Source: Desulfobotulus pelophilus (lineage in GTDB: Bacteria > Desulfobacterota > Desulfobacteria > Desulfobacterales > ASO4-4). Taken from it: a stretch of 64,000 bases of DNA. The notes under the pieces are model-generated. The model searched no databases and was not told the origin of the DNA. It was given only the letters and a program-made list of their open reading frames with translations. Shown in pieces: positions 43,573 to 62,859 of this stretch. A program made the translations under genes and the position numbers. Positions within the stretch are counted from its first letter, which is position 1. Each line of letters starts with the position of its first letter. Where the stretch lies: the NCBI RefSeq assembly GCF_026155325.1, contig NZ_JAPFPW010000002.1, forward strand, positions 186,001-250,000, given 5' to 3'.

Positions 43573-45558
43573 TCAGAATAAAACAGAGGTCAGACTCCGG
43601 ATAAAACAGCCTCCTCCGGAACCCGACGGAATGAGGGGTTCGTACCGTACATGGTCCACCCACCCGGCATCCTTACCGCTGCTGACGATCTCATCTTTTC
43701 TGTACGTCCACTCGAGTACATGGTCACCCCCGGGCAGGGCGAAGGAACGGGTTTCCCAGTCCCTATGGCCGGAAATCCTTTCTGCTGGTTCTCCATTGAT
43801 GGAAAATTCCAGAAAATCATAGTCTTTTTCAGATGAAACCATCCAGTTGAAGCGCAGGGTCCCCGGACCGTTCACCCCGGTTCTGAGAATGGATTGCTGG
43901 TTATCGCGGAGCATGCCGCTGCGAGCGGCACTGCCTCCCTGAGCGGAGCTGCTCGTATCGCCAAACCATTCTGCCTCTCCAAGGCTTTCCCATATGAGAT
44001 GACCATTGTTCAGGGCCTGAGCAAGGGGAAGGAGATAGAGGGCCGTGACCACCCTGTTGCTGTCCATGGTGATGGTGCAGTTTCTTCCGTTTGGGGCAGG
44101 GCAGCCGGACCAGCCTTGAAAAATGGATTCGCCGGACTGGAGGGGAGCCGTAAGGGTGAAGGTGCTGCCTTCCTGTGCGTGGGTGATGACATAGGGGGTA
44201 GTGCCGCCGTAGCCCGTTGGTGTGGAGTTTATAATGACGCTCTCCGTTCCCGATGCCTGAACGGTGAGAATGGGGCTGGTCATGCTGCTCCGGTATGGCT
44301 CTATGTTGCGGGCCATACCCTGATTGAACCAGTTGAAGTTGAATAAGGGGTTGCCTGACTCCGTGTATTGGATGTTGTTGGAGGCATACCATCCATCGTA
44401 CTGACCATTCCAGCCCATATGAATATGGATCTGATCGGGATCGGACCGGTAGCCGCTGACCACCACGGCATGGCCATAGCGGCGCTTGCCATCGACCTCT
44501 TCGGCTATGCTTAGAATAGCGGGCCTGCCATTTTCCGTTTCTTGCCGGAAGAGATTCATCCATGCGCTGTCTGACATATATTCCGCTCGGTATGCCCACT
44601 CAATGGTGTCTTTGTACCGGAAATAGCGGGGAAGTACGGTGAGAATATCGTCGGTGAAGGCCATGGAAGCGGTGGGGCCGAACTCCATTTGAAAGGCCAT
44701 GGCCACGTCCGCTGCCAGCATGGACAGGGCTTTTTGTTGCAGGGTGGTTGTAACATCGGCGGCTGCATCCGGCATTTGATGCCAGTCGTAGGTCCGGGTA
44801 CTGAAATTTTGTTGGAGGGTGATGGTTTCGTTGCCGTTGTTCCACTCGTAGTCAATGCTGTCACGTCCCATGGGTGGCCAGCGGTGGTAGTGCATGATCT
44901 GAGTTGTGGCGGTGGCGACACAACCCACAAGGGTAGGGCTGCCATCGTGCCACAGGGGAGTTTCCAGATTGAATGGATAGCTTTGTCCCCAGAGGCTTGT
45001 TACCAGAGGACCGATGAAAACAGGGGCAGATGGGCCGGGGTCTCCGTCCCGTCCGTCTGCGGTATTCTGCTCTCTTCTTTTTTCCAGCTGGTACCAGAGC
45101 CGGGTATTGGCAGAGTGATCCGCAAAGGAACCTGCACCGGCACCATCTCTGGCAGAAGGGGGCTGTCCGAGCATCTCGGCCAGATGGGAAAGCTCCTGAA
45201 GCATGGCCGTGAAAAAAGGAGGAATGCCCGCGGTCCGGTTCAGCCTCAGGGTGCTGGAATGGGAGAACAGTTTGATGGGTGGCAGGGTGTCATGGGCGCT
45301 GACAAGGATATGGCCTCTGGGGGAGATGATAAAATTATAGGCCACGGGCTTTTCATTGTAATAAAGGGTTTCCATGTCATGAATGCGGGGATAATGGGCG
45401 GAGTCCGACCAGTCATCCGAGTTTTCCACCTGATGGTCCAGCCAGTTTTCCGCAACCTTCCAGGCCCGCTGCATATCTACAGGAGCAGCCTGAGCAGGCA
45501 GCAGGAGGATGGAGAAAATGAGCAGGAAGGCAAATGAAAGGGCGGGAAATCTTTTCAT
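43573..45558 (-). CDS. Secreted C10-family cysteine peptidase with C-terminal repeat and CFI-type tail
   Basis: A 661-residue precursor with signal peptide (cut near PAQA|A). A propeptide precedes a streptopain-like catalytic domain with nucleophile C213 in VGCVATATTQIMHYHRWP and H363 in YGHAVVVSGY. A beta repeat follows (STFTLTAPL..IFQGWSGCPAPNGRNCTITMDSNRVVTALY), then a lectin-like module with a DYDFLEFSINGEPAERISG core, and the tail GSGGGCFIRSL, which recalls the GGGCFI C-terminal sorting motif. Likely exported by the type II system encoded nearby; host function unknown. Confidence 0.85.
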   Translation of the reverse strand: MKRFPALSFAFLLIFSILLLPAQAAPVDMQRAWKVAENWLDHQVENSDDWSDSAHYPRIHDMETLYYNEKPVAYNFIISPRGHILVSAHDTLPPIKLFSHSSTLRLNRTAGIPPFFTAMLQELSHLAEMLGQPPSARDGAGAGSFADHSANTRLWYQLEKRREQNTADGRDGDPGPSAPVFIGPLVTSLWGQSYPFNLETPLWHDGSPTLVGCVATATTQIMHYHRWPPMGRDSIDYEWNNGNETITLQQNFSTRTYDWHQMPDAAADVTTTLQQKALSMLAADVAMAFQMEFGPTASMAFTDDILTVLPRYFRYKDTIEWAYRAEYMSDSAWMNLFRQETENGRPAILSIAEEVDGKRRYGHAVVVSGYRSDPDQIHIHMGWNGQYDGWYASNNIQYTESGNPLFNFNWFNQGMARNIEPYRSSMTSPILTVQASGTESVIINSTPTGYGGTTPYVITHAQEGSTFTLTAPLQSGESIFQGWSGCPAPNGRNCTITMDSNRVVTALYLLPLAQALNNGHLIWESLGEAEWFGDTSSSAQGGSAARSGMLRDNQQSILRTGVNGPGTLRFNWMVSSEKDYDFLEFSINGEPAERISGHRDWETRSFALPGGDHVLEWTYRKDEIVSSGKDAGWVDHVRYEPLIPSGSGGGCFIRSLTSVLF

Positions 45559-45720
45559 GGGCTGGCTCCGGTATGATAGGGGATATTCACGGGTGGAAAA
45601 AGGCTTTTCTGTGGTTCTTTTCTCACTTTTTCAGTATTCTGTACAGCCTGTCATGGGCCGTTATCCTTCTTGGGACACTATCCATGTGAATCTTTTTAAC
45701 CAGAACAGGAGGCTTTGAGC

Positions 45721-48315
45721 ATGCCCCTTCCCTTCACATCCGGTCTTCCGGGGCTGGATCAGGTTTTTAAAGGCGTTATGGCCGGGGATAATATTGTCTG
45801 GCAGATTGACAGTATTGATGAATATAAGGCGCTGGTCATCCCTTTCACGGAAGCGGCGGCAAAGCAGAGGCGTCGTCTTATCTATTTCCGTTTCGCCACC
45901 CATCCCGTATTGCTTCCGGAGGACAGTCCGGCGGAAGTGCATCATTTTGACCCTCATATGGGGTTTGAACGGTTTGTCACAAAGATTCATGGTGTTATCG
46001 AGGAAGCCGGTTACGGTGCCGCCTATGTGTTTGACTGTCTTTCCGGACTGGCAGGAGCATGGAAGTCCGACCAGATGCTGGGAAATTTTTTTGTTCTGAC
46101 CTGTCCGAGGCTGTACGAACTGGAAACGGTGACCTACTTTGCCCTGCAGCGCAATGCCCATTCCGCCTTTGCAACGGATCCCATTACGGCTACCACCCAG
46201 TATCTGCTGGATATCTTCCGGTATAACAACCGCATGTACATTCGCCCCATAAAGGTTCAGTACCGGTCCACTTCAGCCATGAATACCATTCATTTCTGGG
46301 AGGATGACAATACCTTTCCTCCGGTTACGCGCAGTGCCCTGATTGCGGAAATTCTGGCATCCGCCCGCTGGCCGGGGCTCCATGCGGAAAGGAAAATTGG
46401 TTTCTGGCGCAGAATTTTTACAGATGTACCCAGGGTGCTGACGGAATCCAGAGCCGGCCTTATCCCGAAGGAAAAGGAGGAAAAGCTGTTTATTCGTCTT
46501 GCCCGCCTCATGCTTTCCAGAGACGAGCGCATGCTGGAGCTGATTCGGAAATACATGACCCTTGAGGATGTGCTGGCCATCCGGGACCGCATGGTAGGCA
46601 TCGGCTTCATTGGCGGAAAGGCTGTTGGAATGCTGGTGGCACGGGCCATTCTCCGACAGAAGGGCAGTCGGTTTCAGGATCTTATGGAAACCCACGATTC
46701 CTTTTATGTGGGTTCCGATGTTTTTCATACCTTTCTTGTGAGAAACGGTATCTGGTGGATACGGCAGAAGCAGCGCAGGCCGGAAACCTTCCTTGCCGAC
46801 ATTGCGGAAGCCCGAACCCGCATCAAGCAGGGTGGCTTCATACCCTACCATATGGAACAGTTCATGAAAATCATCGATTATTTCGGTGAGTCGCCCTATA
46901 TCGTACGGTCAAGCTCCCTTCTGGAAGATAATTACGGCAATGCCTTTGCAGGAAAATACGACAGTGTTTTCTGTGTGAATCAGGGCTCACGGGAAGCCCG
47001 GCTGGAGACGCTTTTGCATGCCATACGCCATGTCTATGCCAGCACCATGAGCGAGAATGCTCTTTGCTACCGTAACCAGAGGGGGCTTCTGGATAAGGAT
47101 GAACAGATGGCCCTGCTGATTATGAGGGTATCGGGCCAGCCTTCGGGAAAGACCTTTTATCCCCATGCGGCGGGTGTAGGATTTTCCTATAATCCCTATG
47201 TATGGAACCGGGAAATTGATCCAAAAGCCGGAGTCATTCGTCTGGTTTTCGGTCTTGGCACACGGGCTGTGGACAGGGCTGATGATGATTATACCCGGGT
47301 GGTGGCTCTGAATGTGCCGTCCCGACGGCCGGAGGCCAACTTTGATGAGGTTTGTGAATACTCCCAGAAACGAATGGATTATCTCGATCTTGCGGCCAAC
47401 AAGCTGGTGTCGGGCTATTTTTCGGAACTCGGTCCCCAAAACCGGGATCTGCCTCTGGAGCTGGTGGCTTCTCTGGCGGGAGGAGGTCTGCTCAGTAAGG
47501 GGCCCAGACACTGGATTGTCACCTTTGATAAACTGCTGACAACCACTTCTTTTGTGGAAGACATGAAGGAAATGCTGCAGGAACTGGAACGTGCCTACGA
47601 GCATCCCGTGGATATTGAATTTGCCGTAAATTTCATGGAAGATGCTTCCTACCGGATCAATCTTTTGCAGTGCCGTCCCCTGCAGGTAGAGGGTGTGGAT
47701 GAGGTGGCCCTTCCTGAAGTGGAGATAGCTCGTGAAAACCGCATTCTTGAAGCCAGAGGTGCCGTGGTGGGCCGCAGCCGGATTCTTCCCGTTGACCGTT
47801 TCATCTACGTGGTTCCCAGTTTGTATGCCGGGCTTCCCGTTAAGGAACGCTATGAAGTGGCCCGGATCATCGGACAGCTGAACCGAATGACGGACAGAGA
47901 GAATTGTAACCTCATGGTCATGGGGCCGGGACGATGGGGAACAAGCAGCCCGGACTTAGGTATTCCAACCCATTTTTCGGAAATTGACCGGGTGCGTGTA
48001 CTCTGTGAAGTGGTGACCATGCGGGAAAATCTTATTCCTGATGTGTCTCTGGGAACACATTTTCTGAACGAACTGGTGGAGATGAATATGCTTTATCTGG
48101 CCCTTTTCCCGGAGGGGGAGGGCAATGACCTCAAAGAAACCCTTTTTCTGGATGCGCCCAACAGCCTGCTCTCTTTTCTGCCCGGTGCGGAAAAGTGGCA
48201 GGACATGATCCGCGTGCTGGAAACCTCCTCCCTTGTGCCAAAGGATACCCGGATTACCCTCATGGCGGATGCGGTGGAGCAGAAAGTGGTGGTATTTCTG
48301 GATAAGCGGCCGTAG
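45721..48315 (+). CDS. PEP/pyruvate-binding (PPDK N-terminal-like) protein with degenerate KaiC-like N-terminus
   Basis: An 864-residue cytoplasmic protein. Residues 1-210 resemble a RecA/KaiC-type domain (SGLPGLDQVFKGVMAGDNIVWQI) but lack a Walker A Lys/Ser-Thr. The middle has the pyruvate-phosphate dikinase ATP-grasp features: IGFIGGKAVGMLVARAIL, SPYIVRSSSLLEDNYGNAFAGKYDS and, later, NPYVWNREIDPKAGVIRLVFGLGTRAV. The phosphohistidine and PEP-binding barrel of true PEP synthase are missing, so the enzyme cannot run that reaction alone. ATG 45721 follows AGGAGG by eight bases. Confidence 0.8.
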   Translation: MPLPFTSGLPGLDQVFKGVMAGDNIVWQIDSIDEYKALVIPFTEAAAKQRRRLIYFRFATHPVLLPEDSPAEVHHFDPHMGFERFVTKIHGVIEEAGYGAAYVFDCLSGLAGAWKSDQMLGNFFVLTCPRLYELETVTYFALQRNAHSAFATDPITATTQYLLDIFRYNNRMYIRPIKVQYRSTSAMNTIHFWEDDNTFPPVTRSALIAEILASARWPGLHAERKIGFWRRIFTDVPRVLTESRAGLIPKEKEEKLFIRLARLMLSRDERMLELIRKYMTLEDVLAIRDRMVGIGFIGGKAVGMLVARAILRQKGSRFQDLMETHDSFYVGSDVFHTFLVRNGIWWIRQKQRRPETFLADIAEARTRIKQGGFIPYHMEQFMKIIDYFGESPYIVRSSSLLEDNYGNAFAGKYDSVFCVNQGSREARLETLLHAIRHVYASTMSENALCYRNQRGLLDKDEQMALLIMRVSGQPSGKTFYPHAAGVGFSYNPYVWNREIDPKAGVIRLVFGLGTRAVDRADDDYTRVVALNVPSRRPEANFDEVCEYSQKRMDYLDLAANKLVSGYFSELGPQNRDLPLELVASLAGGGLLSKGPRHWIVTFDKLLTTTSFVEDMKEMLQELERAYEHPVDIEFAVNFMEDASYRINLLQCRPLQVEGVDEVALPEVEIARENRILEARGAVVGRSRILPVDRFIYVVPSLYAGLPVKERYEVARIIGQLNRMTDRENCNLMVMGPGRWGTSSPDLGIPTHFSEIDRVRVLCEVVTMRENLIPDVSLGTHFLNELVEMNMLYLALFPEGEGNDLKETLFLDAPNSLLSFLPGAEKWQDMIRVLETSSLVPKDTRITLMADAVEQKVVVFLDKRP

Positions 48316-48332: not shown

Positions 48333-51300
48333 TCAGGGTGAAAAAATAAGGATGGGGGCGGAGACCACGCAGTTTCTGCCCTTTTCTTTGGCCCTGTACA
48401 GGGCTGCATCCGCCTCACGGACAAGATCCTCCGCCGTGAAACTGTCCGATGGGATAATGGTGGCCGTACCGGCACTGACGGTAACCACGCCAGCGATGGG
48501 GGAGCCTGCATGCTCCATGGCCAGATTCTTCACGGCCATGCGGATGGTGTCTGCCACTTTTTCAGCACCTTTTTCATCTGTTTCCGGAAGAATCAGGATG
48601 AATTCCTCCCCTCCATAGCGGGCAAGGAAATCTTCCGGCCTGTGGATTCCCGAGCGCAGGGTATGGGCTACGGCAATGAGGCAGTCATCCCCTTTCTGAT
48701 GGCCATAGGTGTCATTGTATTTTTTAAAAAAATCCACATCACACATGATTACGCTTAATGGAAATTTCCTTCGTTTCAGGGAGTTCCAGATGCGTTCCAA
48801 ATAGCTGTCACAGTGACGGCGATTGGCAACTCCCGTAAGTCCATCCTGATGGGCCAGTTCCTGAAGTCGCAGATTGAGTTGCTCCAGCTGCGCCGTGCGT
48901 TCCGCTACCCGTTCTTCCAGTGTGCGGGAATATTCCTGCACCTGTTCGTACAGTCTGGCATTTTCAAGGGAGATGGCAGCCTGGGAGCACAGGGTTTTCA
49001 GGAGGGAAATATGGCTGGTCCGGAATGCGCCTGTGGTGAGGTTGTTTTCCAGATAGAGAAGCCCCAGAAGCTTTGAGTGGCGGCGGATGGGCAGGCAAAG
49101 TACGGAAAGGGGCTGGTGGCTGAGGATATAGCCGTCTGCTGCAAAATCATGATCCAGGCGGGCGTCATCCATAACGAGGTGGTTACCGGACTGAGCCACG
49201 TACTGGGCCAGGCGCAGGGGGTAGGAGGTGATGTCCTGGATTTCCGGGCCTGTCTTCACTTTGTCTTCGTTCTGCCATCGGGTATGGGCGCGGGCTTCTA
49301 TGGCAAAACCTCCACCGGGTCTGGGAGCCAGAAGGATGGCGTATTCTGCGCCTGTACTTTCCAATACTGCTGTCATGAGGGTCTGCAGCAGACGCTCCAG
49401 CACGATTTCACCGGAAATGGCGCGGGTAACCCGAAGTATGGCATCCAGATCCACCATGCGGCTGTCCGGTAGTGGAATGCTGCTGAGGCGGGTGTCGTTG
49501 TCGCAGATGTTACCGGGCAATCTGTTTTCGCAGAGGCCGGGGGTGTGTTGCTGCAGTGCTGCTGCTTTGGCGTCGGCTCCCCATAGCCGGTAGCCGAGAA
49601 GGGCATCGCCGGAGTGGAGATCTCCATAGCTGGCATAGCCTGTTTCTGACCAGAATCTGGCGGCACTTTCATTGCTGAGTGCCTCTATGTTGAGGAACTT
49701 GTTTTTTCTGGCATCGGCAGCCGCTTCCGCATACAGGCGAAGTGCTTCTGCCGTATGTTTCTGGAGACGGGCGTTTTCTGCTTCCAGAAGGAGATGGCGG
49801 CAGAGAAAATTCTCCGGACAGTTTTCTGCCCATATGCGGTTATGTTCCCGGTAGTGGGAAAGCCGTTCCTCATAATAGTTTTTCTCATCCCGGTCCAGCT
49901 GGTGGAAAACGGCACCGATGGCCAGGGCAAAATAGAATCCATGTTCTGCAAGGATCACCATGCCGGGAACGGAAAGCATGAATTCCTCAAAGGCTCTGCC
50001 ATGGTAAAGGGCCTGCTCCCACCGGCTGAAGTAACATGTCTGGATCAGCTTTATGGTATGGTAGAAGGCAAGCCCCATGGCGTTGTCTTCTCCTTTCATA
50101 AAGGCAAGGAAGTCCTGTTCCGTGAGAATTTCCGTATCCAGGCTGTCTTGGTCACGTGTTTTGCCCATGAGGCTGCAGATGAGATTGAAGTGCATCTGAA
50201 TGATGGGAAGGATGGGTTGAGAAGTGGTCTTCCGGGCCATGGCAATCGCCTGGGAAGCTTCCTCGTACAGCTCCGGAAGGAGGGCGGACCGGGCAAATCG
50301 CAGGGATGATGTGTTCAGAAGGAGGAATGCTACATGAAGAAGGTCTCCGGCTTCAATGGTGGCCTGGTAGCATTCCTGCCACAGCGGGTCGCATTGGGTA
50401 AAGGGCTCCTTCCAGAACTGGGTATACATGGAGAAATAGACGAAAAGCCTGCCCCGCAAACCGGAGTTTCCCTGTTTTTGGTTGAGGGCAAGGGCCATTC
50501 GGCCAAACTGCCAGGCCTCATCATAGCGGTGCTGTTCTGTAATGCAGCAGGAATAGGCGGCATAGGCATGGGCAGAAAGTTCCGAATGTCCGTATTGCAG
50601 ACCAATATTCATCACGGTGGTTATGAGGCAGATCATGCACCATGGCCGTCTGCTTCGTGTTTGGACGCTTGCTGGCAGGGTCGTGATGAGAAGTCTGAGC
50701 ACTGCCTCCATCCTTGCATTCTGAATGGGGGGCAGATCGGTCAGATCCTGTATGGCCCGGTCTGCCATCAGCTGTCTGAATTGTCTGTCAAGGTTCAGCC
50801 AGTCTTTTTCGGAGGGGTCTGTTTTGAGTATTATGTTCCACTGGCTGAGAACCCGGGAGCAGAGCAGCAGTGCTTCTTCCATTCTGTTGCCGGTGATATG
50901 GATCTGAAGCTGACGCTCATGAATACGGCTGCGATCCATCTCGTTGTCTACCCCCTGAAGCATGGTGGAGAGGAGGGCCTCTCCTTTGCTGAAGTGACCC
51001 TGGAAGACCTCACAATCCGCCTGAATAAACATGAGTTCCAGCCAAAGACTGTGGTGGTGCAGCCATGCCTGTTCCGGAAGCAGGGAAAGTCCGGTTTTGG
51101 CATAGGCAAGCGCCGTATCAAAGGCGTTGATGGTTTTGGCTGTCCGGGCTGCCGTCAGATTGAGATCCGCGAGGTTCAGCCGTTCCCTGTTGTCCATCAT
51201 CAGGCCTGCTCCCGCATTGAGATGCCGGATTACATCAAAGAGAGTATCTTTGCTGCAATCCGGATCACTGGCTTTCATCAGTCGTCCTGCCTGCAGGTGG

Positions 51301-53387
51301 ATGCCTGCTTTTTCTTCCGTGGGTATCATGGCATAGGCTGCTTCCTGCACCCGATCATGGAGAAAACGGTACTGGTTGATAATCATGGGTGAATTCATTT
51401 TGTTTTCAGCTGGTTCTGGTTCTGAGAGTGCCTGTATCAGGCCCGCAGCGGTTGCCGGCATCAGTCCGTTGAAGATGGTTTCCGGTCGGCTCTGCTCGAT
51501 AATGGCAAGGGTTCCGATGGTAAAACTGTTCCCTATGCAGGCTGCCCGGGAAAGGAGGTGGCGGGTGGACCGTGGGAGCCTGCTGAGTTTTCCGATCATG
51601 AGATCGGCCACATTGCATGTGATTCCCATCCTGCGGATATGAGAAAGATCATAATCCCATGTCTGATGCAGGGGGTTGAAGCGCAAGGCTTTTTCCTCGT
51701 GCAGGGTGCCGAGAAACTGATTGACAAAAAATGGGTTGCCAGCGGTCTTTTCCTGAATCAGTTCCGTCAGCTCCCCAACGGTGTCCGCCGGACGGAGCAG
51801 GCTGTCTCCGATCATTTGCCCCAGATCTTCTTTTTTCAGCGCTTCCAGCATGATGCAGAAGGAGGATGGGTTTTTTGACCGGATTTCATCCATGGCCGCA
51901 AGCAGGGGGTGCGGGAGGGTCACTTCATTATCCCTGAAAGAGCCTATCAGGAAAAAATAGCGAATGTCCTTATCCGATGCAATCTGCGTGATCAGGTCAA
52001 TGGAAGAGGGGTCCGCCCACTGAAGGTCATCCAGAAACAGGGTGAGGGGGCGTCCTGGTTCGCAGCAGGCCATGAGAAATTGTTTAAAAACAAATTGAAA
52101 ACGGTTGCGGGCTTCGCTCATTCCCACTTCAGGAACGGGGGGCTGAGATCCGAGAATGAGTGCAAGATCCGGTAGCCGGTCGATGATAATCTGTCCGAAG
52201 GCACCGAGGGCCGAAGCCAGATGCTGACGACGGATGGCAAGAGCTTCCTCACCCAGTCCCAGATAGTGCCGTATCAGTCCGGAGAAGGCCTGTGCAAGAG
52301 CACTGTAGGGTGTGCTGCCCTGCAGCTGATCGAATTTCCCCTGAATGAAATAGCCCCAGGACCGCGTAATGGGTTTGTATATTTCCCGAACGAGTGCTGT
52401 TTTGCCACATCCCGGGTATCCTCCGATAAACACGCTGCGGTTGTTTCCGCAGGAGGCTTCTTCAAAAGCGGCAACCAGCAGGCTCACCTCCCTGCTGCGG
52501 CCATAGAGTTTCTGGCATATCTGAAATTTTTCAGGTATATCCCGCTGGCCCGGGGTAAACGGACTGACGGTATTCTGCCTCCAGCGATCCCGGCATGTCC
52601 GGAGGTCGGAGAGAATTCCCTTCAGGCTTTGGTAGCGGTCTTCGGGGTTTTTGGACATCAGCTTCATGACCACCAGGGAAAGGTCGGCGGGAATATGCGG
52701 ACATCGGATATGAAGATCTTCGGGCTTACGGGCAATATGGCAGTGGATGAGTTCCAGCGGATCCTTGCTTGCAAAAGGCAGCCCGTTGCTGAACAGCTGG
52801 TAGAGGGTAACGCCCAGTGCATAGTAGTCCGTACGGTAGTCAACGCTGCGGTTCATGCGGCCGGTCTGTTCCGGAGAAATGTAGGCCACGGCTGTGCCAG
52901 ATGAATGGGAATGGTGAGGAAAGGGTTCTACATTGGGCAGTATGCTGGCTGTGCTGAAATCAATAACAGCCACCTGTCCGGTATGGGTATGGATGATAAG
53001 ATTGGACGGATTGATATTCCGATGGATAATCCCGGCCTGATGGACCTTTTGTACGGCTTCTGTGATGGCAATGGAAAGGGACAGGGCGCTGTCAGGGGGG
53101 AACGGCTGAAGCAGGTGCTGTTCCAGAGAAATGGCACCTGTATCGTCAAAAATCAGCATGAGCAGATTGCCATGTTTTTCCATACGGCAGCGGCCATATA
53201 CTCCGTGCCGTGCCAGATGGAGTCCCACATTGTAGGCCTGCATGTAGCCCGCAATATCTGCCGGAGAATGGGAACGGAGGAGTTTGAGGATAAGGGATTT
53301 CCCCTTCTTGTCATCCGTGGCCCTGTAGATAAGGGAGCGTTCTGACTGGTGGACTGTGGATTCAATGCGGTAATGCCTGATGTGCAT
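48333..53387 (-). CDS. Giant signalling protein: kinase-like, AAA ATPase, GAF and GGDEF domains
   Basis: A 1684-residue protein. An N-terminal protein-kinase fold (1-270) has Lys36 (LILKLL) and HRNINPSN where the catalytic HRD Asp is Asn (N124); the DFG position reads DFS. Next is an AAA/NTPase domain with Walker A GGYPGCGKTALV and LTLFLDDLQWAD, then long TPR-like helical repeats (about 700-1250), a GAF domain (TRAISGEIVLERLLQTLMTAV..), a coiled coil, and a GGDEF domain with intact ARYGGEEF. It resembles HstK-type multi-domain kinases but ends in a diguanylate cyclase instead of a histidine kinase. ATG 53387 follows AGGCGG. Confidence 0.88.
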   Translation of the reverse strand: MHIRHYRIESTVHQSERSLIYRATDDKKGKSLILKLLRSHSPADIAGYMQAYNVGLHLARHGVYGRCRMEKHGNLLMLIFDDTGAISLEQHLLQPFPPDSALSLSIAITEAVQKVHQAGIIHRNINPSNLIIHTHTGQVAVIDFSTASILPNVEPFPHHSHSSGTAVAYISPEQTGRMNRSVDYRTDYYALGVTLYQLFSNGLPFASKDPLELIHCHIARKPEDLHIRCPHIPADLSLVVMKLMSKNPEDRYQSLKGILSDLRTCRDRWRQNTVSPFTPGQRDIPEKFQICQKLYGRSREVSLLVAAFEEASCGNNRSVFIGGYPGCGKTALVREIYKPITRSWGYFIQGKFDQLQGSTPYSALAQAFSGLIRHYLGLGEEALAIRRQHLASALGAFGQIIIDRLPDLALILGSQPPVPEVGMSEARNRFQFVFKQFLMACCEPGRPLTLFLDDLQWADPSSIDLITQIASDKDIRYFFLIGSFRDNEVTLPHPLLAAMDEIRSKNPSSFCIMLEALKKEDLGQMIGDSLLRPADTVGELTELIQEKTAGNPFFVNQFLGTLHEEKALRFNPLHQTWDYDLSHIRRMGITCNVADLMIGKLSRLPRSTRHLLSRAACIGNSFTIGTLAIIEQSRPETIFNGLMPATAAGLIQALSEPEPAENKMNSPMIINQYRFLHDRVQEAAYAMIPTEEKAGIHLQAGRLMKASDPDCSKDTLFDVIRHLNAGAGLMMDNRERLNLADLNLTAARTAKTINAFDTALAYAKTGLSLLPEQAWLHHHSLWLELMFIQADCEVFQGHFSKGEALLSTMLQGVDNEMDRSRIHERQLQIHITGNRMEEALLLCSRVLSQWNIILKTDPSEKDWLNLDRQFRQLMADRAIQDLTDLPPIQNARMEAVLRLLITTLPASVQTRSRRPWCMICLITTVMNIGLQYGHSELSAHAYAAYSCCITEQHRYDEAWQFGRMALALNQKQGNSGLRGRLFVYFSMYTQFWKEPFTQCDPLWQECYQATIEAGDLLHVAFLLLNTSSLRFARSALLPELYEEASQAIAMARKTTSQPILPIIQMHFNLICSLMGKTRDQDSLDTEILTEQDFLAFMKGEDNAMGLAFYHTIKLIQTCYFSRWEQALYHGRAFEEFMLSVPGMVILAEHGFYFALAIGAVFHQLDRDEKNYYEERLSHYREHNRIWAENCPENFLCRHLLLEAENARLQKHTAEALRLYAEAAADARKNKFLNIEALSNESAARFWSETGYASYGDLHSGDALLGYRLWGADAKAAALQQHTPGLCENRLPGNICDNDTRLSSIPLPDSRMVDLDAILRVTRAISGEIVLERLLQTLMTAVLESTGAEYAILLAPRPGGGFAIEARAHTRWQNEDKVKTGPEIQDITSYPLRLAQYVAQSGNHLVMDDARLDHDFAADGYILSHQPLSVLCLPIRRHSKLLGLLYLENNLTTGAFRTSHISLLKTLCSQAAISLENARLYEQVQEYSRTLEERVAERTAQLEQLNLRLQELAHQDGLTGVANRRHCDSYLERIWNSLKRRKFPLSVIMCDVDFFKKYNDTYGHQKGDDCLIAVAHTLRSGIHRPEDFLARYGGEEFILILPETDEKGAEKVADTIRMAVKNLAMEHAGSPIAGVVTVSAGTATIIPSDSFTAEDLVREADAALYRAKEKGRNCVVSAPILIFSP

Positions 53388-53453
53388 GGTACACCGCCTG
53401 TGGTTGAGATGGCTGGGAGGGCAGCGATCAGTCTGCAGCGGAAAGAGCGACAT

Positions 53454-53952
53454 GGGAAAGAAATCGTTTGGTTGATTTCGGGTATACCCTGCAGAGGAAA
53501 GAAATGGGGTGGGGCAGAGTTAGAAGTATGAAAAGAAAAATAACCCGGATGGACCCGCAGGTCAAGCTGTACCGGCTAGGGGACCATCACCTGCAGCCAA
53601 AGTCTTTGTTCGGGGTGCTGTTGGGAGGATGGAATGGAGGAAAAGGGTTCTTGAATTTTAAAAGATTTTACTTGACAGGTTTTTTGTTTTTAATATATTA
53701 TGGTTAAAAGTTTTTTGAAGGGCGAGCTGGTTTGGTATGGAAATTGTTTATTTCCGGCCCGGAACCGTCGTCCTCCCCCCCTCGTCCGCATTCTGCCCCT
53801 TTGTTAGGGCTGGTGCGGGTGTTTTGGTTTAAGCCCCCCATGGTTTCTGTTACTTTGTATGGATTGCTATGGTTGGTGTGCGGGATGTTTGTTCTACGGT
53901 TTACTATTATAATTTTTAACCTCGTTTTTTTACAAATTTTCAAAAGGAGCCA
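53454..53952 (+). other. Non-coding region with promoter and long leader
   Basis: About 500 bp with no supported gene. It holds a strong sigma-70 promoter (53672-53699) and, downstream of it, some 245 bases of leader before the small gene at 53953. The leader has short GC-rich inverted pieces (for example GCCC/GGGC near 53805-53820) but matches no riboswitch I know. Confidence 0.4.
53672..53699 (+). promoter_or_regulatory. Strong sigma-70 promoter
   Basis: TTGACA and TATATT separated by 16 bp within an AT-rich block; a perfect -35 and one mismatch in the -10. Expected start near 53706. Confidence 0.7.
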
Positions 53953-54195
53953 ATGATGAGAAGCGACGAAGTGAACAATATTCTGATGCTGCTGGGTAGT
54001 GCACATTTTACGGATTCACCGGGTATTTTCCCCCAGAGATATGGTGAACCCGCTCCGCAAGCAACGGAAGGCAACAGGCTGTCCGTCCTGATCAGGGAAC
54101 GGGACAGGCTTGCAGAGCAGCTGAAGATGAAAAGCAGAGAGTATGATGAGTTGGTGCGCTCTCTGGGATCAACCAAAAGACTGAGAACGGTCTGA
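53953..54195 (+). CDS. Small coiled-coil protein, 80 residues
   Basis: Begins MMRSDEVNNILMLLGSAHFTDSPG and ends with a charged helix (NRLSVLIRERDRLAEQLKMKSREYDELVRSL) that looks like a coiled coil. AAAGGAG lies four bases before the first ATG and seven before the second. No family recognised, but ribosome site, promoter and amino-acid composition make it a likely real gene. Confidence 0.65.
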   Translation: MMRSDEVNNILMLLGSAHFTDSPGIFPQRYGEPAPQATEGNRLSVLIRERDRLAEQLKMKSREYDELVRSLGSTKRLRTV

Positions 54196-56216: not shown

Positions 56217-56534
56217 TCAGCGGAAGGCGATGGCCGTACCGTAACAGAGAACTTCCGAAGAGGTAGACATGATGGCCGATGTGCCGTAGCGGACGCAGAT
56301 TACTGCGTCCGCGTTCATGGTCTGGGCCTGAGCCATCATACGATTCATGGCCGTTCGGCGGGATTCTTCCAGAAGCTGGGTGTATCCTCTGAGTTCACCG
56401 CCGATGAGGGATTTCAGCATGGCCAGGATATCCCTGCCAAGATGTTTGGTAAAAACCACGGAGCCTTCCGCAAGGCCCAGTACCGTATAGCTGGTAATGC
56501 CGGGAATTTTGTCTGCCGTTGTGATGATCATCAT
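56217..56534 (-). CDS. YbjQ family (UPF0145) protein
   Basis: A 105-residue protein matching the YbjQ/UPF0145 pattern: MIITTADKIPG start, VLGLAEGSVVFTKHLGRDI, GGELRGYTQLLEESRRTAMNRMMAQAQTMNADAVICVRY and a final CYGTAIAF. The fold forms homopentamers of unknown function. Its ATG overlaps the stop codon of the megasynthase gene by four bases (ATGA), suggesting translational coupling. Confidence 0.9.
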   Translation of the reverse strand: MMIITTADKIPGITSYTVLGLAEGSVVFTKHLGRDILAMLKSLIGGELRGYTQLLEESRRTAMNRMMAQAQTMNADAVICVRYGTSAIMSTSSEVLCYGTAIAFR

Positions 56535-59500
56535 GGGGTCCTCTGCTGTCGTTCTGTGGTAGGGGAGTTGCTGAAAGACGCCTGCATGTCTTTCTTTTTT
56601 CTATCACAGACAGCAGTTTTTGAAAAATCATTCAAGGCCAGTCTGCGTACCTGAAAGTTTTCTGCCGTATAGATGCAGAGACCGTCGCAGAATACGGCCG
56701 CCTGACAGCTCAGCCCTTCCCTTTCATCCTTAAAAATTTCCTTCACATTGATAACACAGTGCATGGCCGCACTGCCGGGCCGGATCTGGCCTCTGTAGGT
56801 CCAGCTGTGGCTCTGGGGGGTGACAAGAAAATCCTCCATGGGCCTTTTCAGTATCCGGGAGGCTGTCCAGCAAAGGGTGGTGAAGACCGCCTGAAGCCCG
56901 AGGGAGCCGGGGCATACGGGGTCGTCCTTGAAATGGGCGTGGAAATACCAGTCCTGATCGGAAATATCCATGACAGCAAGGGTTTCACCAAGGCCTTTGG
57001 CTCCGCCCTTTTCTTCAAAGGAAAGGATGCGGTGGACCATGCGGAAGGCCTGTTCCGGATTGTTGTCCGGATGGGGCAGGGGGCTGTTTATCCCAAAATC
57101 GTGGATGACTTCCATCCCTTTCAGATTTTCCGGAAGATCAAGGCCCAGAGGTGCGGCCATTCCCTTTTGATCTGACAGGGATTCTTTGGTGAAAAAACCA
57201 AAGTGGGTTGTGCATTGTAAAACGGGCTTTTTCCCCTGAAAGCATGCAATCTCGAAAAAGAGAATCTGCAGATCGCCGTTTTTCACGTAGCGGGTCAGGG
57301 TGGCTTTGGTTTCAATTTCTTCTCCATGGAAAACAGGGGCAAGGATGGTTGCATCTCCTCCGAGGTTTCTGAAGAAAAGATCCCTTTCGCTTTTCAGGGA
57401 ACATCCCATCCAGGCTGCCATGAGACCGCAGGGCTGCAGGGCGGCCTCCAGAAGCAGGGCATAGGGGAGATGGCTTTTTTCATGCCCGAAGTCCGGGTTT
57501 GCAGCTTCCGGATGCCAGATGGCGGTGATCTGGCTTTTTTCCGCAATGTGGCCCGGCGTGAGATGGGCATGGCTTACGGCGTCCACCGTGAGATAGGGAG
57601 GCCGTGGAAGTCGGGCGAGAAAACGTCCCTGATCAAAGGGGGCGTAGGTTTTTCCTAGGGCTTCTTCCGCACGGCCATCGCAGAAGGCAAGGAGTCTTTT
57701 TTTGTCCCACAGGGGTTTTTCTTCTTCTGTTTCTGACCAGATGGCGGCAAGACCTTCCCTGTCCGTTCCCTCCAGCATGAGGCTCATGCCCTCAAAGCGG
57801 ACAATGCATTTGCCATCGGCGTACATGAGGGCATCGGCCAGCACAAAGGGCTGGGGAGCAAAATCCATTTGGCGGATATGGATTTCATAGCGTACCTGCG
57901 ATGTTTCCGGCGTTACCGGCCCCCGGCATTTGAGGCGGCTTTCGGCACCGGGCAGGGGCTCCCAGGAGCAGGTTCTGTCTTCAGGTATCCATCCTGTGGC
58001 CATGACGTACACCCGTAAGGTCTGCATGCAGCATTCATACATCAGGGTGCCGGGCATGACAGGATCATCGGAAAAGTGGCAGGTGAGAAACCAGTCGTCC
58101 GGGTGGATATCCGCCTCGCCGATGGCAAGGCCGCAGCCATAATGACCGCCCTTGGGGTCCATTTCCCTCATGCGGTGAACCAGCGCCAGCATGCCGCCGG
58201 GCAGACGGATCTTTTCTCCCATGGTTTTTCCTTTGAAAAGGGGACCAAAGGCCTTTTCAGCATCTCCTTTTCGCAGGGCTTCCATTTTTTCTTCGGAAAG
58301 GGCCGAGGCAGGAAAGCTGTGGATGGGGATGGCACCGGGGGCGATGCCCCTGTCCTTCATGATGGCCGGGAATCTCTCCTTTGGGATTACGCCTCCGGAA
58401 TCACGGATTTCTTCGGGTGTGAAGAATCCGGCACAGCCCTTTTCCATGGTGATGAGTTTTTCCCTGCCGATGAATCCCGTAAAGCGGAAGAAAAAGATGT
58501 GGGTTTCTCCCTGCTGCACAAAACGCTGGATTTCGATTTCATAGCGCACCGTTTCACCGGGCCTTGGCAGTCTTCTGTGGAAGGATGCCACCGCATCCAG
58601 AAGACGGTAGGCCCTTGTGCCCTTTACCTGAAGATCTATGCCCATGTAGGCGCAGAGGAAGAGATCGGCCTGACCGGATTCAATGGCAATGGAAAAGGGG
58701 GTGCGGCCTCCGTCCAGATACCAGGCGTCTTCTTTTACTTCATGCTCCGTGACGATGGTTCCGGGTCCGGTGCGGCCCTTTACGGCATCAATGGAGAGGA
58801 TTCGGTCCACCAGCAGCAGGGGTGGGGCCGGAAGCCGTACCCGCACAGGATAGCTGTCCACCGCAGCAAAGTCTTTGCCCAGAACCTTTTCTGCCTTGCC
58901 GATGGCAAATTCAAGGCAGGCTTCATGGTCAAAGGCAGGGGGCGGTGCAGCCGCAGGGGAAGGGGGTGGAGCCGTAGGTAAAGGGGGCAGAGGTGCAGGT
59001 AAAGGGGGGGCAACCCAGTCCGTGCCGCTTTCCTTGTTTCCCAGCAGGGTATCCAGAGTACGGAGGCGCTGGGCACAGCCATCAAGGTAGATTTGATGCA
59101 GGCGGCAGGTCTCCTTCTGTATGGAGGAAAACTGGCTGAAGGCCATTTTATGCAAAGGGTTTTCTGCCATGCCACCTTTTTTGATCCAAGGCTCTGCCAC
59201 ATGCCAGATGGCTCTGGCTCTGGTAATGCTGATGACTTCCGCCTCGTCTTTTTTGGAAAGGCTGAAGGCCAGATGGGGACGGTCTCCTAAGATACGGCGG
59301 ATCATGCGGGTGCAGGAGTCCGATGGTCCCATCTCCACAAATATCCGCACACCGTCCTCCCATGCTTTGAGAACCAGTGATGGAAAATGAAAGCCCCGGA
59401 GGTTTTGGTCTAAAATGGCCGTACAGCAGCTCTTTGTATCCGGAGTAAAGGCTTTTTCGCTGGCACAGGAATAATAGCGGTAGGGTTGTGGATGAACGGG

Positions 59501-62500
59501 GAAGGTGTGCAGGGTTTCATAGGCATTGCGTGCGGGTTGTAAAGCATCGCAGTGTACGGAAATGACCCCTTCAAGGAAGATGGGAGCAAGGCCCAGATCC
59601 GCTGCCAGTTTTTCAATGTCCTTTTTTTCTCCTCCCACCACACATTCTTTGAAGGTGTTCACAATGAGGCGGCGCAGTCTGGGATAGGCGGGGAGCTGGC
59701 TGTCCAGTGTCTCCATTTCCACGGGAATGAGGGCGGCGGCCCAGCAAAAGGGTTCTTTATCTCCGATGCCCCATTGTTTCCGTAAAGCCCTGCAGGGACC
59801 GGAAAGTTCTTTGGTGAAAAGATCGGAGTCTTTCAGGCGCTGCTGCATGATTTCCGGGTTTTCCCAGAGGCCTGTGGCAAAAAATCCGGCTGTTTCTCCG
59901 AGGGAATAGCCCATCACCGCCTGGGCCGCAAAGCCTTCTTCTTCGGCAATGCGGGTCATGATGCGGCCATAGCGTACCTGGGCGAAAATGGCAGGGCTGG
60001 GGTCATCATTATGGTCCGGGGAGAGGAGAGGGATGGCTTTTTTATTGGAAAAGCTTTCTTCATCGGCCTTTAGGATGTGGGGCCAGAACTGTTCAAGGCT
60101 TTTTCCCATGCCATGGAAATGATTACCCGAGCCCGGATAGACAAAGGCCGCTTCTCCCCGGATGCCTTTTTGCAGGGAGGGCGCAAGGAAGGCGGCTCCT
60201 TCCCGGCCAGCAGGCAGGAGGGTCCGGCCTTCGGCGATGGCCTCTTCAAGGATGGCACACCAGGAGCCAATCCGTTTTACATCACAGGCCAGAAGGGCCG
60301 ACCTGAACTCTCCTTCCGATGACCGGCAGGCTGCAAGGCTTGAAGCCTCGGGGAGAAGGGAAAGGTTTTTCACTTCTTCACGGAGAAGGCGGCAGGCCCG
60401 GATCAGCTCTTCTTTTGAATCGGCGCATAAAGGATAAACCTGTACGGGAGGGGATGGAGCTGCGGCTGGACTTTTCGGAGCATTGGGTGATGCCTGCTTT
60501 GTTTCCTGCCGGGGGAAGCGGGAAGGAAGGTTTCCTTCCGCTATGCGGAGCAGGCCTTGGCCGGAACTTTCCCAAGGCTTTTTCCCCGAAGCCTTTTCCA
60601 TCTCTTTTTCCCATTTTTCCGGAGAGATCTCTCCAAGGATGGTTTCACCACATTGAATGGCATCTTCTTTTTTGCGGAGAATCAGGCAGATGGCACCGGA
60701 GAATGGCTCGTCTGCCATGCCTTCAAGGCCCCGGCAAAGGTAAGACAGGGGATGGCTGCGCATATCCGAGGCGGCAAGGATAAAGGCCTTGCTTTTCCCT
60801 TGTTCAAGGCTTTGCTCCGCCATGTGCAGGGCTTCGATGGTGGCTTTTCCATCGCCGGAGAGGGTGATGCATGGCCCGCCCAGCCCGAAAATCTTGGCCA
60901 CCCGGCTGGCCGCCATGCTGGTGAGGGAGCCTGTAACGTGGTCCGCATCCAGAGGGGGAAGGGCAAGGGCTTGTTTATCTTTGGGAAAGGCCCATCTCAG
61001 GCTGAAGTCCGTTGCCGCAGGATCAAAATCAACCAGAGCTGTAAGACCCGTGGCTGCCCGTGTGCTTTGGTCCCAGTCCAGATTTTGAAGGGCATTTCTC
61101 ACGCAGAGGAGCAGCGCCCTGTGGTCCGCCAGCATGGCTTCGCTTTCTTTCGGGGGGATGGAAAAAAGGCCGGGGGGAATGGGAGCTTCTTTTTTGTCGT
61201 AGCGTGCCGCACCCACGATGACAAGGGAGCTTTTCCTGCGTGAGGAAGGGATAAAGGGTCCGGGTTCCGGTGCTGTGGGTGCTTCTTCCACTATCATATG
61301 GGCGTTGATACCGCCAAATCCAAAGGCATTGACTCCGAAGGCTCTGGGCTTTACGCCTTTTTTCTCCCATGGCTCAGCCGAGTTGAGGATGCAAAAGGAG
61401 CTTTTTTCAAGGGGGCTTCCATGGGCTGCCTTATCAAATGATGGGGTGATGGGAAGAGTGCCTTTTTCAAGGCAGATCAACATGCGGCTGAGACCAGCGG
61501 CTCCGGCGGCCGTCAGCAGATGCCCGGTCATGGATTTAACCGAGGCCAGGACGGGTCCCTGTTTTCTGCTCTTGCCGAAAATTTCTTTAAGGCTGAGAAT
61601 TTCCACGGGATCTCCCGTGGGTGTGCCCGTACCATGGCATTCCACGGCATCCAGATCCTGAGGCGTCATACCCGCCATGGACAGGGCCTGTGCCATGGCC
61701 CGGATCTGTCCTTCGGATCTGGGGGCCAGCACATTGCCGCCGATGTCGTTGGAAAGGCCGATGCCCCGGATGACGCCTAAGATGGGGTCCTGATGTCTGA
61801 GGGCATCTTCCAGTCGTTTTAAGGCAAAGAGTCCGCAGCCTTCCCCCACCACAAGGCCATCGGCCCTTTCATCAAAGGGGCGGCAGTATCCCGAAGGAGA
61901 AAGGGCTTTGAGCTGGGTGAAGCCGATCTGAAGAAAGGAAATGTCGGCTCTGGAAATGCCACCGGCCAGCATGAGGTCCGCGCGTTTTTCCCGTAAGATA
62001 TCACAGGCCAGACGGAGGGCCACAAGGGAGGAGGCGCAGGCCGCATCCAAAGTAAAGACAGGCCCGCCAAGATGCAAAGCCCGGGCCGTAATCAGGGCAG
62101 GACTGCCCGTGACTCCGAAGCAGGGGTTTGTGCCATTGTCCGTAAAGTATGATTTTCCCTTAAAGGATGTGCGGGCAAGCCGGGTGATGCTGTCCGTGGG
62201 AAGCCCGAGAAGACCCGTAATCAGCCCCGTTCGTTTCTTAAGGCTTTCCCTTGCCTGGCAGCTATGGAGAAGGCCTGCTGTATTGTGGACAAGAAGTCTT
62301 GGGAGGGGATCTGTGAACCATTCCTTTCTCATGCTGCTTTCAGGAAAAGGAGACAGGGTTTCGGGAAGGGGAGCCAGTGCCGCCATGGTGCTGATGGTCC
62401 TGTCCGGAAGATGGCTTTCCGAAAGAAAGCGGGCCTGATCCGGCCAGCGTTCTTCGGGGATTTTTCGGATGGCCACATGACCTTTAAGAATATGACGGCC

Positions 62501-62575
62501 GAAGGTGGCAATATCCGGTGAGTCGGGAAAGGTACCGCTCTGGGCGATGATGGCAATTGGCATAAAGGATGTCAT
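56531..62575 (-). CDS. PUFA-synthase-like megasynthase, KS-CLF-AT-DH-DH (Pfa3/PfaC-like)
   Basis: A 2014-residue multidomain synthase. A ketosynthase has the complete triad C180 (DAACASS), H314 (ECHGTGTPTGDP) and H352 (SMTGHLLTAAGAAG). A second KS-like domain has GDG where the Cys would be, so it is a chain-length-factor type. The acyltransferase has S891 in GYSLGET. After a Pro/Ala-rich linker (near 1270) come two double hot-dog FabA-like dehydratase units, each with an HFxDDPVxPG motif. The order matches myxobacterial Pfa3. No ACP, KR or ER domain is present here. Start uncertain: upstream ATGs reach 62695, but homology begins near MPIAIIAQSGTFP. Confidence 0.87.
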   Translation of the reverse strand: MTSFMPIAIIAQSGTFPDSPDIATFGRHILKGHVAIRKIPEERWPDQARFLSESHLPDRTISTMAALAPLPETLSPFPESSMRKEWFTDPLPRLLVHNTAGLLHSCQARESLKKRTGLITGLLGLPTDSITRLARTSFKGKSYFTDNGTNPCFGVTGSPALITARALHLGGPVFTLDAACASSLVALRLACDILREKRADLMLAGGISRADISFLQIGFTQLKALSPSGYCRPFDERADGLVVGEGCGLFALKRLEDALRHQDPILGVIRGIGLSNDIGGNVLAPRSEGQIRAMAQALSMAGMTPQDLDAVECHGTGTPTGDPVEILSLKEIFGKSRKQGPVLASVKSMTGHLLTAAGAAGLSRMLICLEKGTLPITPSFDKAAHGSPLEKSSFCILNSAEPWEKKGVKPRAFGVNAFGFGGINAHMIVEEAPTAPEPGPFIPSSRRKSSLVIVGAARYDKKEAPIPPGLFSIPPKESEAMLADHRALLLCVRNALQNLDWDQSTRAATGLTALVDFDPAATDFSLRWAFPKDKQALALPPLDADHVTGSLTSMAASRVAKIFGLGGPCITLSGDGKATIEALHMAEQSLEQGKSKAFILAASDMRSHPLSYLCRGLEGMADEPFSGAICLILRKKEDAIQCGETILGEISPEKWEKEMEKASGKKPWESSGQGLLRIAEGNLPSRFPRQETKQASPNAPKSPAAAPSPPVQVYPLCADSKEELIRACRLLREEVKNLSLLPEASSLAACRSSEGEFRSALLACDVKRIGSWCAILEEAIAEGRTLLPAGREGAAFLAPSLQKGIRGEAAFVYPGSGNHFHGMGKSLEQFWPHILKADEESFSNKKAIPLLSPDHNDDPSPAIFAQVRYGRIMTRIAEEEGFAAQAVMGYSLGETAGFFATGLWENPEIMQQRLKDSDLFTKELSGPCRALRKQWGIGDKEPFCWAAALIPVEMETLDSQLPAYPRLRRLIVNTFKECVVGGEKKDIEKLAADLGLAPIFLEGVISVHCDALQPARNAYETLHTFPVHPQPYRYYSCASEKAFTPDTKSCCTAILDQNLRGFHFPSLVLKAWEDGVRIFVEMGPSDSCTRMIRRILGDRPHLAFSLSKKDEAEVISITRARAIWHVAEPWIKKGGMAENPLHKMAFSQFSSIQKETCRLHQIYLDGCAQRLRTLDTLLGNKESGTDWVAPPLPAPLPPLPTAPPPSPAAAPPPAFDHEACLEFAIGKAEKVLGKDFAAVDSYPVRVRLPAPPLLLVDRILSIDAVKGRTGPGTIVTEHEVKEDAWYLDGGRTPFSIAIESGQADLFLCAYMGIDLQVKGTRAYRLLDAVASFHRRLPRPGETVRYEIEIQRFVQQGETHIFFFRFTGFIGREKLITMEKGCAGFFTPEEIRDSGGVIPKERFPAIMKDRGIAPGAIPIHSFPASALSEEKMEALRKGDAEKAFGPLFKGKTMGEKIRLPGGMLALVHRMREMDPKGGHYGCGLAIGEADIHPDDWFLTCHFSDDPVMPGTLMYECCMQTLRVYVMATGWIPEDRTCSWEPLPGAESRLKCRGPVTPETSQVRYEIHIRQMDFAPQPFVLADALMYADGKCIVRFEGMSLMLEGTDREGLAAIWSETEEEKPLWDKKRLLAFCDGRAEEALGKTYAPFDQGRFLARLPRPPYLTVDAVSHAHLTPGHIAEKSQITAIWHPEAANPDFGHEKSHLPYALLLEAALQPCGLMAAWMGCSLKSERDLFFRNLGGDATILAPVFHGEEIETKATLTRYVKNGDLQILFFEIACFQGKKPVLQCTTHFGFFTKESLSDQKGMAAPLGLDLPENLKGMEVIHDFGINSPLPHPDNNPEQAFRMVHRILSFEEKGGAKGLGETLAVMDISDQDWYFHAHFKDDPVCPGSLGLQAVFTTLCWTASRILKRPMEDFLVTPQSHSWTYRGQIRPGSAAMHCVINVKEIFKDEREGLSCQAAVFCDGLCIYTAENFQVRRLALNDFSKTAVCDRKKKDMQASFSNSPTTERQQRTP

Positions 62576-62859
62576 GGCTTCCGGGCTTTTTTGTTTGTAT
62601 GATTGGGAGCTAGTGCTGAAACTTGAAAAAAACCCTGCCATACTGCCATGTTTTGCTCTCTGAAGGCAAGGCGGGCTTTGTCTCTTCCTCTTCATTTCTG
62701 TATGAATCCATCAGGAAAGCAGTGAAAGAGTCTTTCTTTCCGATGAGCAATCACTTATACTCCATATCATACGATACAAAACAGATGCCGCACCCTATAC
62801 CCGTCCCGATTCCCATGCAGGAAAAACGATGTTTTCATTTTATTTTTATGGGGTATTCC

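Follow-up and report, generated by a model that had tools for sequence, protein, structure and literature searches.

The product of the gene studied here, in a window of 64,000 nucleotides of Desulfobotulus pelophilus DNA, is probably a multidomain c-di-GMP synthase that belongs to the STK-AAA-GAF family with a COG3899-like ATPase (the CP1 kinases). We favor a reading in which its kinase fold is a pseudokinase that would act as an allosteric or docking module, and in which the GGDEF domain would be switched by the ATPase. The pseudokinase assignment is well supported by the sequence and the diguanylate cyclase is apparently competent, while the gating and the ATPase-switched oligomerization are steps that we infer from domain order and conservation. 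A sequence-only reading of the same DNA had placed the gene at 48333-53387, quoted the motif HRNINPSN and proposed a pseudokinase fused to an active-looking diguanylate cyclase. The minus-strand frame 53387-48333 and its translation confirmed the position and the motif, the pseudokinase proposal was backed by the residues, the orthologues and the family comparison detailed below, and the cyclase was borne out by intact GGDEF motifs.

An additional in-frame ATG occurs at 53453, but the starts of the orthologues line up with 53387 instead. From the N terminus onward, the protein comprises a kinase fold, an AAA_16 ATPase, a long helical region, a GAF domain, a coiled linker and a GGDEF domain (Table 1). 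Pfam Pkinase (PF00069) matched residues 20-253 with an E value of 2.3e-18. Within the long region there was a weak match to TPR_CHK1 (residues 1144-1232, E 0.0025), its 17.6 bits lying below the family cut-off of 27. No Pfam match to HisKA or HATPase was found in the protein at E ≤ 0.01, and the C terminus is GGDEF.

Table 1. Features of the window protein and its gene, with positions in the window.
Feature	Residues	Coordinates	Strand	Basis or remark
Whole gene	1,684 aa + stop	48333..53387	-	Open frame; start matches the orthologues' starts
Protein-kinase fold	1-267	52587..53387	-	Pfam and AlphaFold model
β3 Lys35, retained	35	53283..53285	-	Family alignment
Ala51 at the α-C Glu column	51	53235..53237	-	Family alignment
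Catalytic loop HRNINPSN	122-129	53001..53024	-	Asn124 replaces the catalytic Asp
Asn124, sense codon AAT	124	53016-53018	-	Sequence
DFSTAS at the DFG position	143-148	52944..52961	-	Sequence; Asp143 retained, Gly replaced by Ser
AYISPEQTGRMNR	168-180	52848..52886	-	Holds Pro172 and Glu173, constant in all 63 fully scorable Asp-lost relatives
AAA_16 ATPase domain	293-480	51948..52511	-	Pfam, E 9.9e-34
Walker A GYPGCGKT	323-330	52398..52421	-	P-loop intact
LTLFLDDLQW, which we take to be Walker B	448-457	52017..52046	-	Sequence
Long region, probably a helical repeat array	641-1320	49428..51467	-	Repeat nature inferred
GAF domain	1330-1474	48966..49400	-	Pfam, E 3.6e-14
Linker of coiled-coil appearance	1475-1511	48855..48965	-	Judged by eye
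GGDEF domain	1512-1672	48372..48854	-	Pfam, E 1.4e-50
RPEDFLARYGGEEF, RxxD site and GGEEF loop		48600..48641	-	Sequence

Convergent with the focus gene, at 45715-48315 on the plus strand, is a gene for an 866-aa protein with PPDK_N at residues 298-663; its N-terminal ~290 residues had no Pfam match at E ≤ 1e-5 and looked RecA/KaiC-like by eye. A gap of ~17 bp separates the two stop codons. Upstream of the focus gene, the AT-rich stretch 53537-53957 gave 7 sigma-70-like matches over the two strands against 0.9 expected from shuffles, and these are possibly driven by composition. The window also holds a 661-aa C10-family (streptopain-type) peptidase (43573-45558, minus strand), with a signal-like stretch at its N terminus and a long C-terminal extension, both judged by eye, and a 2,054-aa protein (56531-62695, minus strand) with a ketosynthase and two FabA-like dehydratase stretches, presumably akin to a subunit of a polyunsaturated fatty acid synthase. 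Six neighboring window genes were tried and none was found within about 20 kb around the orthologues of two same-genus genomes (G001 and G002), so gene context gives no functional clue. Integrase-like and transposase-like frames, recognized by eye downstream of the G002 orthologue (L306, 14969-16526), fit this lack of shared neighbors.

We took as a pseudokinase any kinase fold that has lost at least one of the VAIK Lys, the HRD Asp and the DFG Asp, and the window protein falls in this class through Asn124. Two further changes went beyond those in the sequence-only reading, namely the replacement of the α-C Glu by Ala51 and of DFG by DFS. Across the family, Asn is frequent at the Lys position of HRD-x-K-x-x-N, with many members reading HKDINPSN and others HKDIKPxN, so that the Lys-to-Asn change in the loop is not in itself unusual. 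The stretch at the Gly-rich loop, SERSLI, is without glycines, and nucleotide binding may therefore be lost too. Asn129 is retained, along with Lys35 and Asp143. The sole other Pkinase-family match in the genome is canonical, with GRGGMG, HRDIKPWN and DFG.

An AlphaFold model of residues 1-638, built on a 70-row alignment, contained a complete kinase fold (mean pLDDT 86.6, pTM 0.80). In fold searches, which barely probed the AAA part, the 50 matches listed by each were headed by Mycobacterium tuberculosis PknB (1mru; Z 29.5, rmsd 2.3 over 255 residues, 27% identity), and STK40 (5l2q, titled a kinase homology domain) ranked 33 in the list that gave these values.

The orthologues in G001 and G002 are ~61% identical to the window protein. 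The G001 site reads HKNINPTH with DFS, and that of G002 reads HKDINPSH with GFS, the Asp having been kept and the Mg-binding Asn and the DFG Asp lost. At positions 35, 124, 129 and 143 the states are K-N-N-D in the window protein, K-N-H-D in G001 and K-D-H-G in G002; each of the three is missing one or more of the essential kinase residues, in differing combinations. With Asn also present in G001 and a broken site in every orthologue, a sequencing or assembly error is an unlikely source of the Asp-to-Asn change. On a 52-row tree, the three proteins formed one clade (100/100), and the next clade added G486 (100/99), the nearest sister, which is a GGDEF protein with an intact kinase site.

These residues also bear on whether the fold could be a weak but real kinase, in which Asn124 would permit autophosphorylation at a low rate, whether in cis or in trans, that suffices to set a regulatory state; Lys35, Asn129 and Asp143 are retained in the window protein, and HER3 and JAK2 JH2, which also have Asn, are listed with low activity (excerpt of PMC4718504). 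We consider such activity unlikely, because the window protein is without the α-C Glu and the loop glycines, and because the ~61%-identity orthologues have lost the Mg-binding Asn, and G002 the DFG Asp as well, so that activity is not conserved within the genus. The lysine and metal ligands that remain would likewise suit another nucleotide-dependent reaction of the fold, for example AMP transfer, the activity of the kinase-fold protein SelO. SelO, whose HRD motif is altered, is tabulated among the pseudokinases of bacteria (excerpt of PMC12599244), but the metal ligands are lost in the orthologues, and a reaction of this kind appears very improbable here.

We calculated dN/dS (NG86) for the orthologues. 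For G001 against G002, the kinase domain (0.164) and the gene as a whole (0.168) had nearly the same value, a similarity which indicates that the fold is being preserved even as its active site changes. In the comparison of the window gene with G001 the value was 0.361 for the kinase domain versus 0.230 for the gene, with the N-lobe highest at 0.440 and dS, at ~0.9, near saturation; partial relaxation of the kinase domain in the window's lineage is possible from these values. Among eight segments, the linker (1475-1511) was the best conserved across the three orthologues, at 78-97% identity, and the N-lobe was narrowly the least conserved between the window protein and its orthologues, at 53-55%, followed by residues 481-640 at 54-56%. 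The low identity and high dN/dS of the N-lobe would be expected of a decaying relic, in which the kinase domain is functionless and the diguanylate cyclase is driven by the other domains. That outcome seems to us distinctly improbable, given that dN/dS is well under 1, that the kinase frame is open in all three orthologues, and that Glu173 and Arg251 are invariant in 252 of 252 family members. We take Glu173 to be the APE Glu and Arg251 the Arg that usually forms its salt bridge.

Those 252 proteins are the analyzed part of at least 262 distinct members that we collected, 10 without a kinase part having been dropped. Genomes were searched with a profile of 20 relatives at E ≤ 1e-60, scoring 5 candidates per genome in the window's order and 3 in its phylum, and the family was present in at least 95 of 242 genomes of the order and at least 29 of 395 of the phylum. 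A set of named loci consisted of the best 79 of 585 confirmed matches, ordered by similarity to the query. L048 is the same DNA as L234 and L097 the same as L230, and both are counted within the order. The full-length set omitted 15 order matches, mostly truncated at contig ends or without part of the kinase region; G463:C224 was later added from these, and G476:C6 and G527:C40 are present as search loci. Some partial matches from the phylum search and from the search that gave the orthologues were also left out.

Position 124 was Asp in 86 of the 144 order members, Gly in 18, Asn in 12, Ala in 11, Glu in 5 and another residue in 12. The Asp was thus lost in 58 of 144, compared with 0 of 72 cyanobacterial members. 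Of the 138 order members in which each of the four catalytic positions could be scored, 73 were intact, 55 had lost the Asp and 10 had lost another residue, and the remaining phylum members (n = 24) divided into 13, 8 and 3, respectively. Among the named loci, 71 of the 72 cyanobacterial members were intact and none had lost the Asp, and all 12 of the others were intact. Since the named loci had been chosen by similarity, we also surveyed whole genomes. Four cyanobacterial genomes had 43 of 44 scorable members intact and no Asp lost, in counts that overlap with the 72 named members, exclude small fragments and leave aside 3 further members that were partly scorable. One Polyangium genome (G624) had 15 of 21 scorable members intact and 1 with the Asp lost, and HLN and HQN stood at this site in two more members that could be scored in part; here 24 members were examined out of 50 matches, with kinase-only matches and one AAA-side fragment excluded. 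In 5 of the 6 damaged Polyangium members (L361, L367, L369, L372, L375 and L376), the HRD Asp is retained and it is the DFG Asp that is missing, a pattern unlike that of the window's order, where loss of the HRD Asp prevails.

Whether Asn is unique to the window protein had been posed as an alignment check by the sequence-only reading, and it is not: 14 of 246 fully scorable members have it, and within the order Gly is commoner (18 versus 12 of 144). The counter-case named in that reading, Asn being common among active family members, did not arise in the material examined. A loss ancestral to the whole family was ruled out, as 169 of the 246 keep all four residues and hardly any cyanobacterial member is damaged. 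We mapped the Asp state on a FastTree tree of 249 rows, for which the columns of the trait itself had been removed and which carried long-branch warnings. The state changed at least 25-26 times on this tree, loss and gain being indistinguishable, compared with a mean of 56 (range 49-61) for shuffled labels. The Asp state is therefore clustered yet often changing, and in the sequences sampled its loss recurs, with a bias toward certain lineages. At L173 two family members lie in tandem (G087 C17; 983-6406 and 6693-11735, minus strand), a GGDEF member with an intact HLDIKPDN beside an Asp-less one with HGAIKPNN and GFG, possibly an active/inactive pair.

We also asked which residues persist once the Asp is gone. 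In all 63 fully scorable Asp-lost members, Pro172, Glu173, Tyr189, Gly192, Lys246, Arg251, Tyr252 and Asp261 were constant, and Lys35, Asn129 and Asp143 were present in 56, 48 and 59% of them. The Walker A Lys was lost in 1 of 60 Asp-lost and 1 of 183 Asp-kept members, or 2 of 243. Another catalytic residue was lost in 40 of 60 Asp-lost versus 14 of 183 Asp-kept members; between tree-independent pairs, this association with Asp loss did not reach significance (median sign-test p 0.25, 16 pairs). We tentatively propose, as an idea that may well prove wrong, that in the window's order the CP1 kinase fold has repeatedly been converted from an enzyme into an allosteric part, in which the chemistry of the ATPase and output is kept, decay of the kinase site is tolerated, and the signal reaches the attached output through a C-lobe surface that does not vary (the region of SPEQTGR, including the E173/R251 pair).

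The C-terminal outputs of the family are diverse. Out of 252 members, 35 were truncated, and the other 217 ended in a histidine kinase (108), GGDEF (24), a PP2C-like domain (20), a cyclase (11) or something else (54). This typing, by phmmer with few reference domains, is coarse; the last class includes unnamed outputs, and a degenerate GGDEF could be missed. All 24 GGDEF-type members keep GG[DE]E[FM], a count biased toward intact domains by the intact GGDEF references used to find them, and the kinase site is intact in 17 of the 24 and damaged in 7. Kinase loss was not tied to GGDEF output, the damaged fraction in the order being 7 of 18 GGDEF members versus 20 of 53 scorable histidine kinase members. 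The HstK-type kinship named in the sequence-only reading held, with 38-45% best-segment identity over the first ~630 aa to the best 79 of 585 loci, mostly cyanobacterial, while its statement that such proteins usually end in a histidine kinase stood only in part, this being the commonest output and far from universal.

At the other end of the window protein, the features by which a diguanylate cyclase is recognized in sequence, a GG[DE]EF loop together with metal and guanine motifs, are all present. The loop GGEEF, which we take to be that of the active site, occupies residues 1592-1596, and RPED (RxxD), presumably the inhibitory site, residues 1583-1586; CDVDFFKKYNDTYGHQKGDD (residues 1549-1568) holds an intact CDVDFFKKYND motif. 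Among the solved structures closest to the domain in sequence are WspR constructs and 3bre, a two-component response regulator. The host genome has 23 GGDEF, 9 EAL and 8 PilZ matches, so that c-di-GMP can probably be degraded and read as well, and by its gene content c-di-GMP signaling exists in this organism.

Under the reading that we favor, the kinase fold may still hold nucleotide, as its HER3/JAK-JH2 residue pattern would allow, and would serve in allostery or docking. The oligomeric state would change when ligands bind the helical and GAF regions and ATP binds the AAA module; the coiled linker would then bring the GGDEF domains together for c-di-GMP to be made, with product inhibition through RxxD. 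If repeated conversion has occurred as proposed, the family would provide a set of separate natural cases in which an enzyme became a regulator while the architecture stayed the same. An easily assayed output, c-di-GMP synthesis, would allow a direct test of the effect of a bacterial pseudokinase on its own protein, and the genus trio with its three differently broken sites, plus the intact sister G486, makes a ready comparison set.

Published systems share parts of this design. In HER3, where the α-C Glu and the HRD Asp are replaced, Mg-ATP is bound with a Kd of ~1 uM and one Mg ion, with weak activity (excerpt of PMC4718504). Both HER3 and JAK JH2 have Asn for the catalytic Asp, as does the window protein, and HER3, like it, keeps the Lys, the Asn and the DFG Asp without the α-C Glu; as these are animal tyrosine-kinase lineages, the likeness is one of residues, not of kinship. 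Among fungal hybrid histidine kinases, Chk1, Mak2 and Mak3 are described as large sensors with an N-terminal Ser/Thr-kinase domain and GAF, and deletion of the kinase-like domain of Candida albicans CHK1 alters phenotype (excerpts of PMC5383687 and PMC9069115). The window protein is likened to them by description and by the sub-threshold TPR_CHK1 match, but their output is a histidine kinase and receiver, not GGDEF. A 1,826-aa Clostridium thermocellum protein with a kinase, 6 TPR and GGDEF was reported in 2005 (excerpt of PMC1262709) and, compared at the level of architecture, has the same N-terminal kinase, helical repeats and C-terminal GGDEF.

HstK and the cbSTKIII dual kinases have the same STK-AAA-GAF body, the first ~630 aa being about 40-45% identical. 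Every cbSTKIII protein was called a KD kinase; DFS was noted in 30 and Gln at the α-C position in 27, and of five cyanobacterial STKs without the Asp, one, SpkE, showed no activity (excerpt of PMC2176072). The DFS and the altered α-C Glu (Gln there, Ala here) are thus shared, whereas HstK and cbSTKIII proteins end in a histidine kinase and the window protein in GGDEF, with Asn in place of the catalytic Asp of the cbSTKIII KD kinases.

The family to which we assign the protein is CP1, found mainly in cyanobacteria and proteobacteria, in which a kinase is linked to a COG3899 ATPase, often with GAF/PAS, and ~40% of members are pseudokinases with one or several degraded motifs (excerpt of PMC12599244, O'Boyle et al. 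2025). Kinase domain and GAF are common to both, and the AAA_16 domain of the window protein (293-480), matched by Pfam, would fit the COG3899 ATPase of CP1. The ~40% of that account compares with 65 damaged among the 138 scorable members of the window's order. In a word search, the main text of the same review did not contain GGDEF, diguanylate or cyclic di-GMP. The literature searched, partly by titles alone, yielded no paper describing a pseudokinase fused to a diguanylate cyclase, and none joining COG3899 with GGDEF. According to the review, almost nothing is known of the role of CP1 pseudokinases in Leptospira, and research on bacterial pseudokinases is very limited (excerpt of PMC12599244). 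The window protein is not a new kind of protein but an example of a catalogued family in which dead kinases are common, with an output that is known, if little noted.
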